In this document: piece after piece, positions 6,347 through 26,753 of the stretch
Position numbering within the stretch: position 1 is the first letter of the stretch
Layout: each line of letters begins with the position of its first letter
Origin: Planctomycetaceae bacterium
GTDB lineage: Bacteria; Planctomycetota; Planctomycetia; Pirellulales; Thermoguttaceae
DNA length: 34,418 bases
Direction: 5' to 3'
NCBI GenBank assembly: GCA_003561895.1
Contig: PWXP01000478.1
Coordinates: forward strand, 1 to 34,418
The notes under the pieces: model-generated
Databases searched by the model: none
The model's input: the letters and a program-made list of their open reading frames with translations, nothing else
What the model was told of the DNA's origin: nothing
Program-made: the position numbers and the translations under genes

Positions 6347-6805
6347 ATGCCTTCTCTCGAAACCGACATCCTGTTCGACCTGATCTGCTCGAAACGCGCG
6401 TGCCTGGAGCAGCTCCGGGAGATGGGCCTGCGGCAGATGGAGTTGATCGAGTCGGGCCGGATGACCACCCTGCTGGACTTGTTGGCGCACAAGCAGCAGA
6501 CGCTCACGGAACTCCAGCAGATTGAGCGCGCGCTGGACCCGTTCCGCGGCCAGGCGCCGGAAGCCCGCCAATGGCGCAGCGAGGAGGCTCGCCGCCGGTG
6601 CGCCGACGCGCTGCACGCTTGCGAAACGTTGCTGGCCGAAATCGTCGACCGGGAGCGCCGCGGCGAGCGAGCCCTGGTTTCCCGTCGCGATGGGGCGGCC
6701 GCGCAGCTCCAACAGATGCACCGGGCGGGGGAGGCGCGGGCGTCGTATACCAGCCCGAATGCCGGCCCCGTCAGCCAACTCGACCTCTGTTCCGACGTCC
6801 CCTGA
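6347..6805 (+). CDS. FlgN-like flagellar export chaperone
   Basis: 152-aa helical protein ([56 protein letters not shown]) with FlgN-like character; flagellar gene context. Confidence 0.6.
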
Positions 6806-6816
6806 GGACCGACACC

Positions 6817-7674
6817 ATGGCATTGCTCAACGAGTATTCCGATCCTCCGCTGCCGGCGGCAAACGCCGAATTGGAGACTGTGCTGGCCGCGTGGCACCAG
6901 GCCACGGTACGGCTGGAGCGAACGCACGAGATGCTCCGCGCCGAGGTGCACCGGCTTACCAACGAACTGGAAGTGAAGAACCGCGAGCTGGCGCGGAAGA
7001 ACCGGCTGGCCGATTTGGGCCAAATGGCCTCGCACGTGGCCCACGAAGTCCGCAATCACCTGGTGCCGGTGACGTTGTACCTGAGCCTGTTGCGACGGCG
7101 CATCGGCGAGGACCGCGGCGCGGTCGACATTGCCGACAAGATCGCCGCCGCCTTCACCGCGCTCGACGCGGTGGTGCACGACCTGCTGCACTTCACCTCC
7201 GACCAGGAACCGCGGCGGTCGCGGTTCCCGCTCGGCCGCGTGGTCGAGGAGGTGTGCGCCTCGCTGGCGCCGCAACTGGGCGCGCAGTCGATCCGCGTCG
7301 TCCTGGACATGGGGGGGGAACCGCGGGTTTGGGCCGACGAGTCGATGGTCCGCCGCGGCGTGCTGAACCTCATGCTCAACGCCGTCGACGCCATGCCCGA
7401 CGGAGGCTCGCTGGTGGTCACCACGTCGGCGAGCGAGGCGGGGGTCGAACTGGAGATTGCCGATACCGGCCCGGGGCTTTCCGACGACGCCCGCCGCCGG
7501 GCGTTCGAGCCGTTTTTCAGCACGAAGTGTGGTGGGACGGGCCTGGGCCTGGCCATCGTGCACCGGATTGCCGAGGTGCACGGGGGTACCGTTTCGGCAA
7601 TGAACTGCCCGGAGGGCGGCGCCGCGGTCACCCTCCGGTTCTCCGACCCGATCGCCATGGAGGCAGCCGCATGA
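6817..7674 (+). CDS. Soluble sensor histidine kinase, FlrB/NtrB-like
   Basis: H-box [20 protein letters not shown]-box [15 protein letters not shown]-boxes DTGPGLS and [13 protein letters not shown]. No transmembrane segment. Internal ATG at 6817 preferred over the 6571 ORF start. Confidence 0.88.
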
Positions 7675-9086
7675 AGACCCCTCCGAATGGTCGTACTCCT
7701 CCCACCGAAACAACCGGCCGCGTGCTGGTGGTCGACGACCACGCCCCCGCCCGCGAGTCGATGGCCGTGGTCTTGCGCGAGGCGGGCCACGAGGTGACGT
7801 GCTGCTCCAGCGGCGCCGAGGCCCTCGCGAGCCTGGCCGAAACGGCCGTCGATTGCGTGGTGACCGACCTGCGGATGCCCGGCATGAGCGGGCTGGAGTT
7901 CATCGCCCAGATCGAGCAGCGGCGGTTGCCGGTCCAGGTGGTGATGGTCACTGCCCACGCGTCGGTGGCCTCAGCGGTCGAGGCGATGCGGCACGGCGCC
8001 TTCGACTATATCGAGAAGCCGTTCGACGTCGAGCAGCTCGAGCGGCTGGTGGGGCAGGCGATCCGCCATGGGCGGGTGTTTGCACCCGGCCGGCACGCGC
8101 GGCAGCCCGGCGCCGAGCCGCCGTTGATGGTGGGCGGCAGCCCCGCCATGCAGGCGCTGCGCGAGCGCATCGCCCGCGTGGCCCCCACGCCCGAAACCGT
8201 GCTCATCCTCGGGGAGAGCGGGACGGGCAAGGAACTGGTGGCCCGGGCCGTCCATGACGAAAGCCCGCGCGCCGCCGGCCCCCTGGTGAGCCTGAACTGC
8301 CCGGTCCTTTCCGCGCAGCTTATGGAAAGCGAGTTGTTCGGTCACGAGCGGGGCGCGTTCACCGGGGCCGAGGCCCCGCGCACCGGACGGTTCGAAATGG
8401 CCCATGGAGGAACCATCCTGCTGGACGAAGTGACTGAAATCGACCTGAATTTGCAGGCGAAGCTGCTTCGGGTGCTGCAAGAGCGGGCCTTTGAGCGGGT
8501 GGGCTCCAGCCGCACCCAGCACGTCGACGTCCGCGTGCTGGCCAGCACCAACCGCGCCCTGGACCGGGCGGTGCGCGAAGGCCGGTTCCGGGAGGACCTG
8601 TACTTCCGGCTGGCCGTCGTGCCCATTCACGTGCCGCCGCTGCGCGACCGCCGCGACGACATTCCCGCCCTGTGCGAGCACTTCTTCGCCCGCTGCGCCC
8701 AGCGTCTCGGCCGCGAACCCTGCGCGCTCGAACCGGCCGCGGTCGACCTGTTGACGCACCATCACTGGCCGGGAAACGTGCGCGAATTGGAGAACATCGC
8801 CACCCGGGCAAGCGTGCTCAACCAGGGCGGGCCGGTCACGGCCGATGAGCTGCGACGGTGGCTGATGGCCGACGCGGCGGGGGCGCCGAACCAAGACGGA
8901 AGCGACGTGCCGGTGGGCCTGAGCTTGCAGGAGATGGAACAGAAGCTGATCGAGGCCACGTTGCAGCACTTCGACGGCCACCGGCAGCGGACGGCCCGGG
9001 CGCTGGGTATCGGCGTGAGGACCCTTTCCGGCAAGCTCCGCCAATACGGCTACGCTCCCCGTGAGAAAGAAAAGGTGAGAGCGTGA
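7671..9086 (+). CDS. Sigma-54-dependent response regulator (receiver-AAA+-Fis HTH), FlrC/NtrC-like
   Basis: ATGA overlap with the kinase. Receiver [11 protein letters not shown]...[15 protein letters not shown]+ [13 protein letters not shown] and GAFTGA; C-terminal Fis-type [24 protein letters not shown]. Confidence 0.95.
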
Positions 9087-18713: not shown

Positions 18714-21143
18714 ATGGGCTTAGCTTCCGCCATGAGCACGGCGTTGACCGGCCTGACCGCCTCGGAGACGACCATCGACGTGGTCGGCAACAACCTGGCC
18801 AACTCGAACACGGTGGGATTCAAGGCGTCGGACGCCTCGTTCGCCACCCAGTTCCTGCAGACCCAAAGCCTGGGCTCGGCGCCCACGGCCGGCAGCGGCG
18901 GCAATAATCCGCGGCAGATCGGACTCGGCACCATGGTGGCCGAAATCTCCCCCAGTTTCACGCAGGGCACCATCGAGATCAGCGCGAACCCGACCGACCT
19001 GGCCATCCAGGGCGACGGGTTCTTCATCGTCGAGGGCGCCCAGGGCGAGCATCTCTACAGCCGCAACGGCATTTTCAAACTCAACGCGCAGAGTGAACTG
19101 GTCACTATCACGGGCAATCGCCTGCTGGGCCACGGGGTCGATTCCGACTTCCAGGTGGAGGCTACCAGCCTGGAGCCGCTGACCATCCCCCTGGGCGCCG
19201 CGGCGGTAGCCCGGCCCACGGAAAACGTGCACTTGGAGGGAACCCTCTCACCCACCGGCGATTTGGGCGACACGGCCGAGGTTATTCAAACCGGGGTGCT
19301 CAGCGACACTAAATGGTCGTATCCGACCGAGGCGCCCACCGTGCAACGGGCCCTCCGGCCGGCAATCGACGACCTTCAGACCGATGTGGAGCCGGGCGGT
19401 GAAATCGGCGCAGGAACTTATTCTTACAAAATCGTCTACGCCGACGGGCCGACGGGGGCGAACCCCAGTACGGAAGGTGTGGCGTCGACGGCTGTCGAAG
19501 TGGCCGTCAATGACCCGAACAGCTCCGTCCAGATCAGCGGCTGGGAAATACCCGACGCCGGCTACAGCCACGTCCGCGTCTACCGCACGCCCGGCGACGA
19601 TCTTAGCGCGTATTACTTCGTCGGCGAAGCCGCCATGGACGCCGATTCGATCACCGACACGCTGTCCGACGATGATTTGAAGGAGCAGCCTCCACTCGAC
19701 CAGACCGATACGCTCAGCGGGGCGTACCAGTATTACGTCACCTTCTACAACGATGCGGCCAATCGGGAAAGCCGCCCCACGCCGGTGGCCGGTCCCATGA
19801 TCGTCAATGACGGGAGAATCCACCTCAACGACATCCCCGCAGGCGACGGCGACGAGTGGACCCACACCCGCATCTACCGCAACCCGGCAGACGACACCGG
19901 CTCTTTCCATCTGCTGACCGAGATCCCCGGCGTGGACGGGGGCAGCTACACCGATTCGATTCCGGATTCGGAAATCGAGCAGGAGCCGCAGATCGACTTT
20001 GACGGCCCGAAGATCGCGGCCAGCACGCTGGTGCTGGACATGGTGCGGCGCGACGGCTCGACCTATTCGCCCGTCTTCTCCGGCCCCGGGACCCTGCAGT
20101 TCGCCGGCCGGAAAGGAGAGCGCACGCTGGCGATGAAGGAATTCGAGATCACCGAAAGCACGACCGTGCTGGAGTTGTACGCCTTCATGGAGTCGGCCAT
20201 GGGCATCCAGTCGCCGCCCGGCCCGGACAGCTCGCGCCCTATTCCGCCTTCGGAGGGCACCTACGGGGGGGACGCCGGAGGCGAAGTCACCACCGATGGC
20301 CGCATCCGCATGCGCGGGAACAACGGGGCCGATAATGCCATCAGCATCGGACTGGCCGGCATGAAGCTGCTCAAGCCGGACGGCACCGAACAGAATGTCA
20401 ACATGCCGTTCACCTCGATTCAAGAAGCCAAGGGCGAGAGCGCCGTGGCCGATTTCATCGCCTACGACAGCTTGGGCATCCCCGTCGCCGTCCGGCTGAC
20501 CGCCGTCCTCGAAAACCACACCAGCACCGCCACCACGTACCGCTGGTTCGCCGACTCGCCCGACAACGACCCCGATACGGGCTCGGCGATCGCCGTCGGG
20601 ACTGGGCTGATTACCTTTGACGGCGAGGGGAACTTCACCACGGCCAGCGAAACCAAGGTTTCGATCGACCGCCGCAACGTGTCGTCCGCCTCGCCGCTGG
20701 AATTCGACCTGGACTTCAATCAACTTTCCGGGCTGGCCACCGACAACAGTACGCTGGCCGTTTCGCGCCAGGACGGTTCGGCGCCGGGCGTGTTGACCAG
20801 TTTTATCGTGGGCGAGGACGGCCGCATCCGCGGCGTGTTCAGCAACGGCATCACGCGCGACCTGGGCCAGATCATCCTCGCCCGCTTCGGCAACCCCGCC
20901 GGACTGGAGCAGAAGGGCCAGAATATGTTCGCCACCGGGGTCAACTCCGGCCTGGCGGTCGAAGGCCGGCCGAACGAGCAGGGCATCGGCTCGATCGTGG
21001 CCGGGGCTCAGGAGCTTTCCAATACCGACATCGGCGGGAACCTGATCGACCTGATCCTGGCCGCCACCACGTACCGCAGCAATACCCGTGTCATCACCAC
21101 GGCGCAGCAGATGTTCGACGAGTTGCTCGCCCTGCGGCGCTAG
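18714..21143 (+). CDS. flgE: Flagellar hook protein FlgE, enlarged by two inserted modules
   Basis: N-term MSTALTGLTASETTIDVVGNNLANSNTVGFKASDASF; C-term GAQELSNTDIGGNLIDLILAATTYRSNTRVITTAQQMFDELLALRR; GGAGGGAAT upstream. Confidence 0.95.
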   Translation: MGLASAMSTALTGLTASETTIDVVGNNLANSNTVGFKASDASFATQFLQTQSLGSAPTAGSGGNNPRQIGLGTMVAEISPSFTQGTIEISANPTDLAIQGDGFFIVEGAQGEHLYSRNGIFKLNAQSELVTITGNRLLGHGVDSDFQVEATSLEPLTIPLGAAAVARPTENVHLEGTLSPTGDLGDTAEVIQTGVLSDTKWSYPTEAPTVQRALRPAIDDLQTDVEPGGEIGAGTYSYKIVYADGPTGANPSTEGVASTAVEVAVNDPNSSVQISGWEIPDAGYSHVRVYRTPGDDLSAYYFVGEAAMDADSITDTLSDDDLKEQPPLDQTDTLSGAYQYYVTFYNDAANRESRPTPVAGPMIVNDGRIHLNDIPAGDGDEWTHTRIYRNPADDTGSFHLLTEIPGVDGGSYTDSIPDSEIEQEPQIDFDGPKIAASTLVLDMVRRDGSTYSPVFSGPGTLQFAGRKGERTLAMKEFEITESTTVLELYAFMESAMGIQSPPGPDSSRPIPPSEGTYGGDAGGEVTTDGRIRMRGNNGADNAISIGLAGMKLLKPDGTEQNVNMPFTSIQEAKGESAVADFIAYDSLGIPVAVRLTAVLENHTSTATTYRWFADSPDNDPDTGSAIAVGTGLITFDGEGNFTTASETKVSIDRRNVSSASPLEFDLDFNQLSGLATDNSTLAVSRQDGSAPGVLTSFIVGEDGRIRGVFSNGITRDLGQIILARFGNPAGLEQKGQNMFATGVNSGLAVEGRPNEQGIGSIVAGAQELSNTDIGGNLIDLILAATTYRSNTRVITTAQQMFDELLALRR

Positions 21144-23282: not shown

Positions 23283-23858
23283 ATGGCTGAGCAGGGGTTT
23301 CAAATACACGACGCGTGGCCCGCGGAGGAATCGCACCCCTCACCTGGGGGCCATTTCGGCAAGATCAAGGCCGTGGTGTTCATCGCCGTGGTGATTGCCA
23401 TTGAGTGCGCGGTGGCGTATTTCTATATTCCGAGTTCCTCGGAGACAGCGGCCATCGCGGGCGCGACACTGGGGATCGACCCGGAGACGGGCGCCGTGAC
23501 CCCACAGGAGGGTGCCGAGCCAGCGGCCGAAACGGTGGATCAAGTCGAAGTTCCTTTGGGCGAGTTCAGCGTCACCGCGTTCCAGCCGGTTTCGAACACA
23601 ACGCTCCGAGTGGATTTCCAGCTCTACGGCACCATTGCTATGGGGGACGAAGCCCAGTTCTTCCGCCGAATGGAGGAAAACCGGCATCGCTTCCGAGAGC
23701 AGGTTATCGTTACTATACGCACTGCGGACATCACCGACTTGACGGAGGCCCAATTGGGACTGATCCGAAGAAGAGTGCTGGAGAGGAGTAATCGCGTGCT
23801 GGGGCAGCCGTTGCTGCGCGGCGTCATTTTCAGCGAATTTTCCTTTATTGAGCAGTAG
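23283..23858 (+). CDS. fliL: FliL-like flagellar basal body-associated protein
   Basis: Single N-terminal transmembrane segment KAVVFIAVVIAIECAVAYFYI; C-terminal RVLERSNRVLGQPLLRGVIFSEFSFIEQ. Confidence 0.85.
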   Translation: MAEQGFQIHDAWPAEESHPSPGGHFGKIKAVVFIAVVIAIECAVAYFYIPSSSETAAIAGATLGIDPETGAVTPQEGAEPAAETVDQVEVPLGEFSVTAFQPVSNTTLRVDFQLYGTIAMGDEAQFFRRMEENRHRFREQVIVTIRTADITDLTEAQLGLIRRRVLERSNRVLGQPLLRGVIFSEFSFIEQ

Positions 23859-23888: not shown

Positions 23889-24644
23889 ATGGCCGACGAT
23901 AAATTGATGGATCAAGACGAAATCGAACGACTGGTCAACCAAGCCAAGCCGGCAGGCAGTACGGCCGATTCGTCCAGCGATTCCCCCTCGCAGGGCGGGG
24001 GCGCCGCCCCGGCCGATCAGGCACTCGACCAAAGCGAAATCGAAGCGTTGTTGGGACAGGCGGGAAGCCCCCCCGACCCCGGAACGGCCCGGACAGAATC
24101 GCAAGCCGCCGGTTCCGGCAGGCCCACCGGACAAGAAAACATCGCGAAGCTGCCTAGCGGATCGGACCCGTCGCCCGGCGCGACCGGGCAGGCGCAGGAA
24201 CCGGCGCCGAGCCAGGAAGCCGCTCCCACGGCAACCGGTGCGGAGGACGTCGCTCGCGAAGATGTTGAATACCTGCTCAACCAGGCGGAGCGGGCGCTGC
24301 AGTCGATCGACTCGGCAACCGACCAGGACTTGCCGCAGGGAGTCGCCGCGTTTCGGCTCGAAGAGTTCCCCGGCGCACCCGCCTCCACCGAGGCCGCCAC
24401 CCTCGACCTGATCCGCGACGTTGAACTCGACCTGAAGATCGAACTCGGACGTACCCACATGTACCTCGAAGACGTATTGAAGCTTCGCAAAGGGGCGGTC
24501 GTGCCCCTCGACAAGCTGGCCGGCGACCCCGTAGACGTCTATGTCAATGAACGGCTGGTTGCCCGCGGCGAGGTCCTGGTGCTCAACGACAGCTTTTGCG
24601 TTCGAATTGCGGAACTTATCGCGGGAGTCGGGGCGGGCTCCTAG
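23889..24644 (+). CDS. fliN: FliN-type motor switch protein with three FliM-like N-terminal motifs
   Basis: C-terminal SpoA domain DVELDLKIELGRTHMYLEDVLKLRKGAVVPLDKLAGDPVDVYVNERLVARGEVLVLNDSFCVRIAEL. N-terminal LMDQDEIERLVNQA, ALDQSEIEALLGQA, VAREDVEYLLNQA. Confidence 0.93.
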   Translation: MADDKLMDQDEIERLVNQAKPAGSTADSSSDSPSQGGGAAPADQALDQSEIEALLGQAGSPPDPGTARTESQAAGSGRPTGQENIAKLPSGSDPSPGATGQAQEPAPSQEAAPTATGAEDVAREDVEYLLNQAERALQSIDSATDQDLPQGVAAFRLEEFPGAPASTEAATLDLIRDVELDLKIELGRTHMYLEDVLKLRKGAVVPLDKLAGDPVDVYVNERLVARGEVLVLNDSFCVRIAELIAGVGAGS

Positions 24645-24745: not shown

Positions 24746-25855
24746 ATGCCTCCACTACTGCGTATTCTGCTAGCGTGCTGCGCCGCCAATCTGGCTGGGA
24801 TCGCACGGGCTCATGAACGAGTTTCCTCCGAATATGCCGCCCCCCGGCCCCATTCCAGCCCGGCATTCGGGCAGCCGTCGCTGGCACAACACTACCTGGC
24901 GGCGCCATTGGGTGGGGCGTCGGCCGACAATCGGCCGAAGCCCGGCATGTCTGCGGAATCGTCGCACGAGGGCGGTGCGTCGGACCTCCTGAACCAAGGT
25001 GCCTCGGTGGCGGAACCCCAGCCGGAGCCTCGAACCGCCGCGCCCCGGGATCCCGCCATGCCGGCTGAAGAGGCGGGACGATGGGATGCGCCCGGGTTCG
25101 GAACGATGCCCCCATCTTCAAGCGATGCTTGGGAGGACAGAGAATCCGGCGTTGCCCCGGCGGCGTTCGAAGAGGAGCCGGCCGAGCCGCCGCAACTTTT
25201 CCCGGCGCCGGCGGTTCCTCTTCGGCCGGCGCCGGTTTCGCCCGATGCGCCGGAGCGCGAGACCTCGAAACCGCGCGGTGCTGCCGAATCGGTTTCGCCT
25301 GTGCGGCATTTCAGCGAAGAGGTTGCCGTGCCGGCGGCCGACGCGGCTGCATCGCCGGAAGAGCCGGCTGCATCGCCAAAGGAGCCGCCGGCCGGCGCCA
25401 TGCCGCTTCAGCAGCCGCGCGAGGCGATGCCACTTCAAGCGCCCGGAGCCCCCGGTTCGGAAGGCGGCCGGCGCCGAGCAGGCGGCTTGCCTTCGGTAGT
25501 GACGGTTGTGGGTGGACTGGCCGTGGTGTTGGGTATTTTCTTCATGGTGGCTTGGGGGATGCGCCGGGCCGCGCCGAAGGCGTTGACCACGCTGCCCAGC
25601 CAAGTGGTCGAGGTACTCGGCCGCGCTCCCCTGGCCGGGCGCCAGCAGGTCCACCTGCTGCGTTGTGGCAGTAAGCTCTTGCTTGTGTCGGTCACGCCCG
25701 ACGCGGCAGAGACGCTTACGGAAATCACCGACCGGGAAGAGGTGGACCGCCTGGCCGGCTTGTGCGAGCAGGTGCGGCCGCACAGTTCGTCGACGGCGTT
25801 TCGCCGCGTATTCCACCAGTTTGCTCGTGAAGGAGAGGGCGCCTATGAACATTAG
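24746..25855 (+). CDS. fliO: FliO-like protein with long low-complexity N-terminal region
   Basis: Transmembrane [24 protein letters not shown] followed by [41 protein letters not shown]; immediately upstream of fliP. Confidence 0.82.
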
Positions 25856-26753
25856 CGCATCGCCGGGGGGGCATGCCCGACCGGCCCCGGCGCTCCGCGA
25901 GCCGGCCCGCCCCGGTCCGGACGACGCACTGAAACGCTGGCAAACCAGCCGCGCAAGGAAGGGGTTTGCCTGGTTCGCCGTGGCGCTGGCGTGCCTGGCC
26001 GTTCTAGTGCCGGCCGCGGCGCAGGATGCCTCGAACGCGCCGATGAGCCTGGAGGTGCCCGGCGGGTTGGCCGGCGGCCCGGAGCAATGGACCAGCCCCG
26101 AAGGGCTGAGTTCGGCCCTTCAGGTCATGCTGCTGCTGACCGTGCTGAGCCTCGCCCCCGCCGTGCTGCTGATGACCACGTGTTTTGTGCGCATCGTGGT
26201 GGTGTTGGGTCTGCTGCGGCAGGCGATCGGCACGCAGCAGCTTCCCCCAAGCCAGGTCATCACCGCCCTGGCCCTGTTCATCACGCTGCTGATTATGACG
26301 CCCGTCTGGAAGCAAGTGTACGACGAGGCGATCATCCCATACACGAACCAGGATGTCGGGCTCGAGGAGGCGTGGCGCGCGGGCGTCGAGCCGGTGCGGC
26401 GGTTCATGAGCATGCAAATCGCCCGGACCGGCAACAGCGACGACGTCCACTTGTTCCTCCAATACATGCCCGACCAGCCCGCCCCGACCGACTACAACGA
26501 CGTGCCGCTCGAAGCCCTGCTGCCCGCGTTCATGCTGAGCGAGTTGAAAACGGCCTTCCTGATCGGGTTCCAGATCTATCTGCCGTTCGTCATCCTCGAC
26601 ATGGTCATCGCGGCCGTGATGGTGTCGATGGGCATGCTCATGCTCCCGCCGGTGATCATCTCCTTGCCGTTCAAGCTGCTGCTGTTTGTGCTGGTGGACG
26701 GATGGCACCTGGTGGTGGGCATGCTGATGGAGAGTTTCCAACCGTTCACCTAG
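25845..26753 (+). CDS. fliP: Flagellar export protein FliP
   Basis: [52 protein letters not shown]...[33 protein letters not shown] at 25845 overlaps the fliO stop. Confidence 0.97.

Follow-up and report, generated by a model that had tools for sequence, protein, structure and literature searches.

We analysed a stretch of 34,418 nucleotides (the window) from a bacterium of the Planctomycetaceae, order Pirellulales. It holds a flagellar cluster in which fliN sits before fliO-fliP and which also includes fliE, fliF, fliG, fliH, fliI, fliK, flgE, flbD, motA, motB and flhB. The features of fliN and its direct neighbours are as follows.

23283..23858, + strand: fliL-like gene directly upstream of fliN (open reading frame; fliL assigned from synteny only)
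23889..24644, + strand: fliN, encoding 251 aa with an extended N-terminus (open reading frame; PF01052 and TIGR02480 over cut-off)
23901..23948, + strand: distal motif 1, FliM-type putative docking peptide, residues 5-20, KLMDQDEIERLVNQAK (FliM-derived matrix score, predicted helix, pN/pS)
24015..24062, + strand: distal motif 2, FliM-type putative docking peptide, residues 43-58, DQALDQSEIEALLGQA (FliM-derived matrix score, predicted helix, pN/pS)
24120..24164, + strand: decayed distal motif, residues 78-92, RPTGQENIAKLPSGS (alignment with the intact RPLAQHEIEKLLNQA in sister genome L021/L263)
24249..24311, + strand: proximal helix, residues 121-141, VAREDVEYLLNQAERALQSID (predicted helix; below the FliM-motif score)
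24345..24404, + strand: conserved spacer, residues 153-172, AAFRLEEFPGAPASTEAATL (profile match to PDB 8umd chain D)
24408..24620, + strand: SpoA (FliMN_C) domain, FliN residues 174-244 (PF01052)
24746-25855: fliO (Pfam)
25665-26753: fliP (Pfam)

The fliN reading frame is real, as a preliminary description of this locus had it. Its product matched PF01052 with 82.3 bits in the Pfam search (cut-off 23.8) and the FliN model TIGR02480 with 98.8 bits in the NCBIfam search (cut-off 84.05). PF01052 was the sole Pfam domain in the protein; neither the FliM middle domain PF02154 nor a CheC-like phosphatase domain was detected with Pfam, and the FliY model NF005995 gave 102.3 bits, short of its cut-off of 218. 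Judged from its sequence, the 251-aa protein is an ordinary FliN by its SpoA domain, extended by a predicted disordered tail of roughly 110 residues with FliM-type short linear motifs. The product of the upstream fliL-like reading frame had no match in Pfam or NCBIfam, FliL models included. This reading frame ends at position 23858, and the 30-nt gap to fliN leaves no room there for fliM, which also agrees with the preliminary description. At 809 aa, the FlgE hook protein (18714-21143) elsewhere in the cluster is unusually long; a large insert separates its D1 and D2 domains. A receiver-domain-containing sigma-54 activator (6522-9086; PF00072, PF00158 and a Fis-type HTH) lies directly upstream of the basal-body genes and is likely a flagellar regulator.

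To score the FliN tail we derived a matrix solely from the FliM N-termini of relatives. The best windows in shuffled tails set thresholds of 8.05 (99%) and 12.5 (99.9%). Motif 1 (LMDQDEIERLV) reached 9.4, over the 99% level, and motif 2 (ALDQSEIEALL) reached 14.7, over the 99.9% level. The proximal helix scored 5.2, under the lower threshold. It is without the LxQ cap, and it is retained in several relatives whose FliN lost the distal motifs. Since it is also longer than the distal helices and has a conserved AExALxSI tail, we regard it as a separate element, and probably a structural one of FliN. AlphaFold2 (53 sequences) placed helices at residues 9-19, 48-57 and 123-141, with low confidence in the linkers between them and a mean pLDDT of 88-89 for residues 121-140. 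No helix was predicted by AlphaFold2 at the decayed copy (residues 78-92). According to this model, each distal motif can form a short helix resembling the FliM N-terminus. The spacer between the proximal helix and SpoA could be aligned to the N-terminal part of Salmonella FliN (8umd chain D, the match beginning N-terminal to SpoA), which in the Salmonella C-ring wraps around neighbouring elements (PMC11302681).

Three FliM-like motifs had been proposed for this tail. The first two hold; the third (AREDVEYLLNQAERALQSI, 24249-24311, score 5.2) does not. Instead of a triplication, the tail has two distal motifs of good quality, a decayed copy at residues 78-92 that had been overlooked, and the separate proximal helix. 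Motifs 1 and 2 are the two functional-looking ones in the window FliN.

To see how the tail evolves we compared the window FliN with that of the two sister species. The pN/pS values were 0.15-0.26 for motif 1 and 0.09-0.23 for motif 2, against 0.60-0.70 for the linkers and 0.41-0.65 for the decayed copy; the SpoA domain had 0.04. Purifying selection acts on the two distal motifs, and the linkers drift. Loci from named genomes (Blastopirellula, Thermogutta, Botrimarina, Lacipirellula) place the multi-motif FliN family in Pirellulales, and the N-terminal motifs are spread across this order in varying copy number. We counted 166 distal motifs in 112 FliN tails by a regular expression checked against shuffles, where shuffling predicts 1.45. 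Such a surplus, together with purifying selection confined to the motifs, makes it very improbable that a disordered tail merely expanded by neutral gain of low-complexity sequence, even if the linkers are compositionally biased and variable in length as such an expansion would have them. Among the FliN that were scored, the number of distal motifs per protein lay between 0 and 4. The highest count seen was about five FliM-type motifs, in a relative's FliN of 334 aa (L340, 3001-4002). The detailed comparison covered FliN of Planctomycetota only, and a plasmid search returned only FliN matching across the C-terminal half.

The preliminary description had further suggested that fliM is missing from this genome. 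A genome search found fliM on another contig (C236), beside a proA-like gene; the gene is full-length and its N-terminal motif is intact. The host FliM has 350 aa, starts with MGGDVLSQTEVESLLSAM, and matched TIGR01397 with 295.8 bits (cut-off 219.6) and PF02154 with 221.9 bits, the single PF02154 match in the host genome. The assembly consists of 680 contigs (86% complete, 2.5% contamination). A binning artefact is nevertheless unlikely, because closely similar FliM proteins occur in the sister genomes of the genus and one-contig relatives hold both multi-motif FliN and FliM on a single chromosome (in G186, fliN at 1.10 Mb and fliM at 0.17 Mb). Among the 129 genomes of the order, 100 had strong SpoA matches and 97 had FliM, and FliM accompanies multi-motif FliN in nearly every such relative. 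Loss of FliM is thus rejected for the host and its relatives.

The host also encodes a third SpoA protein of about 301 aa (SpoA at residues 219-289; L003 847-1752 on contig C119), away from the flagellar cluster, in which a FliM or CheC domain was not detected. Three SpoA proteins were likewise found in most relatives with multi-motif FliN. Several other Pirellulales (G019, G022, G023, G037 and similar genomes) have very divergent FliM and FliN, with CheW and CheA absent, which suggests a second, degenerate or non-motility flagellar-type system.

In all 69 named loci that hold a fliL-like gene (69/80 named loci overall), this gene precedes fliN and fliM does not intervene. In 65 other planctomycete genomes where fliM and fliN could both be located, a FliM-type motif was present on FliN in 17/34 cases with fliM not adjacent to fliN and in 0/31 with fliM adjacent (Fisher p=1.4e-6, phylogeny ignored; weak motifs make up a few of the 17). 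Where the two genes adjoin, FliM proteins are also more divergent. For these reasons adjacency may be a marker of two ancient flagellar lineages and no sign of a causal link. The association between FliN motifs and the fliM gene, expected earlier as a co-occurrence with fliM loss, is real, but it concerns a fliM relocated to a place apart from fliN and not a lost one.

Next, we asked whether the motifs go along with chemotaxis. The host chemotaxis contig carries cheR, cheA, a cheC-like gene, cheD and, at the contig end, the first 23 codons of cheY; a complete cheY was not recovered. The cheC-like gene was called from its cluster position and a match to relatives, with no Pfam hit. In the 91 genomes of the order with a readable FliN, the mean number of distal motifs was 1.76 with CheA (n=66) and 0.80 without CheA (n=25), where the absence of CheA may be an assembly gap since many of the genomes are incomplete drafts. 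At least two distal motifs were present in 47/66 CheA-bearing genomes and in 5/25 CheA-less ones. The difference was significant with genera as units (p=0.0017) and in a genus-level within-family permutation (p=0.005), statistics that are blocked by family and genus and are not a full phylogenetic model. There were many exceptions. At least one distal motif occurred in 15/25 CheA-less genomes and none in 11/66 CheA-bearing genomes, two of which (L101 and L110) may be truncated, as their reading frame is short. Outside the order, the association of CheA with the motifs was not significant (10/17 vs 6/17, p=0.30). We tested CheA and CheW and rejected a simple correspondence of the motifs with chemotaxis. 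The motif on FliM was mostly kept regardless of CheA, including in most CheA-less genomes. A FliM-type motif can therefore do without CheA, and the motifs on FliN may bind something else too.

We consider the best explanation, with a probability of about 0.58, to be that the FliN tail supplements the site on FliM with auxiliary, multivalent docking sites whose most likely ligand is CheY-P. Once CheY-P has bound the FliM N-terminus and is thereby tethered, it goes on to contact a second site, of which FliN is a part in E. coli (PMC7355467; PMC11087270). The FliN tail would add the same kind of tether beside FliN's own ring surface and offer CheY-P extra docking sites around the C-ring. These sites would raise the local concentration of CheY-P and its effective affinity, while FliM, with its own single motif, would still relay the signal to FliG. 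With two motifs per FliN, a Salmonella-type C-ring (FliM1:FliN3 x 34, a stoichiometry borrowed from Salmonella) would hold 238 docking peptides instead of 34, about sevenfold more. Both CheY-P as the partner and avidity as the effect are what we infer from these patterns. Of the earlier proposal that FliN took over CheY docking in multivalent form, the switch with little or no FliM falls away; multivalent docking itself is indirectly supported by the order-wide conservation, the purifying selection on motifs only and the lower peptide number in CheA-less genomes.

The main rival takes the FliN motifs for helices of assembly or subunit contact that pack on neighbouring FliN or FliM, their likeness to the CheY peptide being secondary. 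T. maritima FliY reportedly dimerises by its N-terminal domain and does not prefer active CheY (PMC7355467), which means that N-termini of SpoA proteins are capable of other roles. The wrapping of the Salmonella FliN N-terminus round its C-ring neighbours and the persistence of the motif without CheA, in FliM and in many FliN, point the same way. A contact helix would not readily account for a copy number of 0 to about 5, a free linker length and fewer copies without CheA, nor for the specific LxQxEIExLL pattern common to FliN and FliM. We therefore judge contact helices to be a rather unlikely explanation of the distal motifs; for the proximal helix, a contact or assembly role is likely.

It is less probable still that the motifs attract some protein with a receiver domain that is not the chemotaxis CheY, for instance a stand-alone surface or cell-cycle regulator. 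The host genome has 33 receiver-domain matches, motifs persist in many CheA-less genomes, and one report describes a class of CheY-like motor regulators besides CheY (PMC5677366). The association with CheA points instead to chemotaxis, and no particular partner is indicated. Lastly, the replacement of FliM by FliN in a switch with little or no FliM could draw on the absence of fliM between the fliL-like gene and fliN, but it is refuted by the full-length, motif-bearing fliM elsewhere in the host genome. Most relatives that have a multi-motif FliN also have FliM, and in one-contig genomes the two genes share a chromosome.

How the binding of CheY-P becomes an ultrasensitive switch is a long-standing question. 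The studied models have one FliM peptide per C-ring subunit. Pirellulales FliN proteins, with 0 to about 5 extra FliM-type peptides and fewer of them without CheA, make up a natural series in which one could ask whether the number of docking sites sets switch sensitivity. If CheY-P docking on the FliN tail is taken further, planctomycete FliN would be a multivalent CheY-P antenna with hundreds of putative docking peptides per C-ring and a lineage-tuned copy number, which would set switch sensitivity apart from the FliM-FliG relay. We put this forward tentatively, at somewhat less than even odds. We found no description of a multi-motif FliN in the open-access literature searched, a search that subscription papers mostly fell outside, and a literature search using the motif letters gave no match.

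When compared with known systems, the window FliN resembles the FliN of E. coli/Salmonella and T. maritima in its SpoA domain, in its gene position before fliO-fliP and in passing the family cut-off, and its fold matches that of Salmonella and T. maritima FliN. Unlike Salmonella FliN (137 aa), which is not known to have an EIDALL-type peptide, it adds the disordered tail with repeated FliM-type motifs. The tail shares the LxQxEIExLL pattern, the predicted helix and the disordered tether with the CheY-docking peptide at the FliM N-terminus. Unlike in FliM, the peptide is placed on FliN and in several copies, and the PF02154 domain is encoded elsewhere. B. subtilis FliY is likewise a SpoA protein with an N-terminal motif, which there binds CheY (PMC8809382). 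The window FliN differs from FliY of B. subtilis, T. maritima and Helicobacter/Campylobacter in that no CheC/FliM-like middle domain was detected in it, and it has several motif copies and coexists with both FliM and a third SpoA protein.
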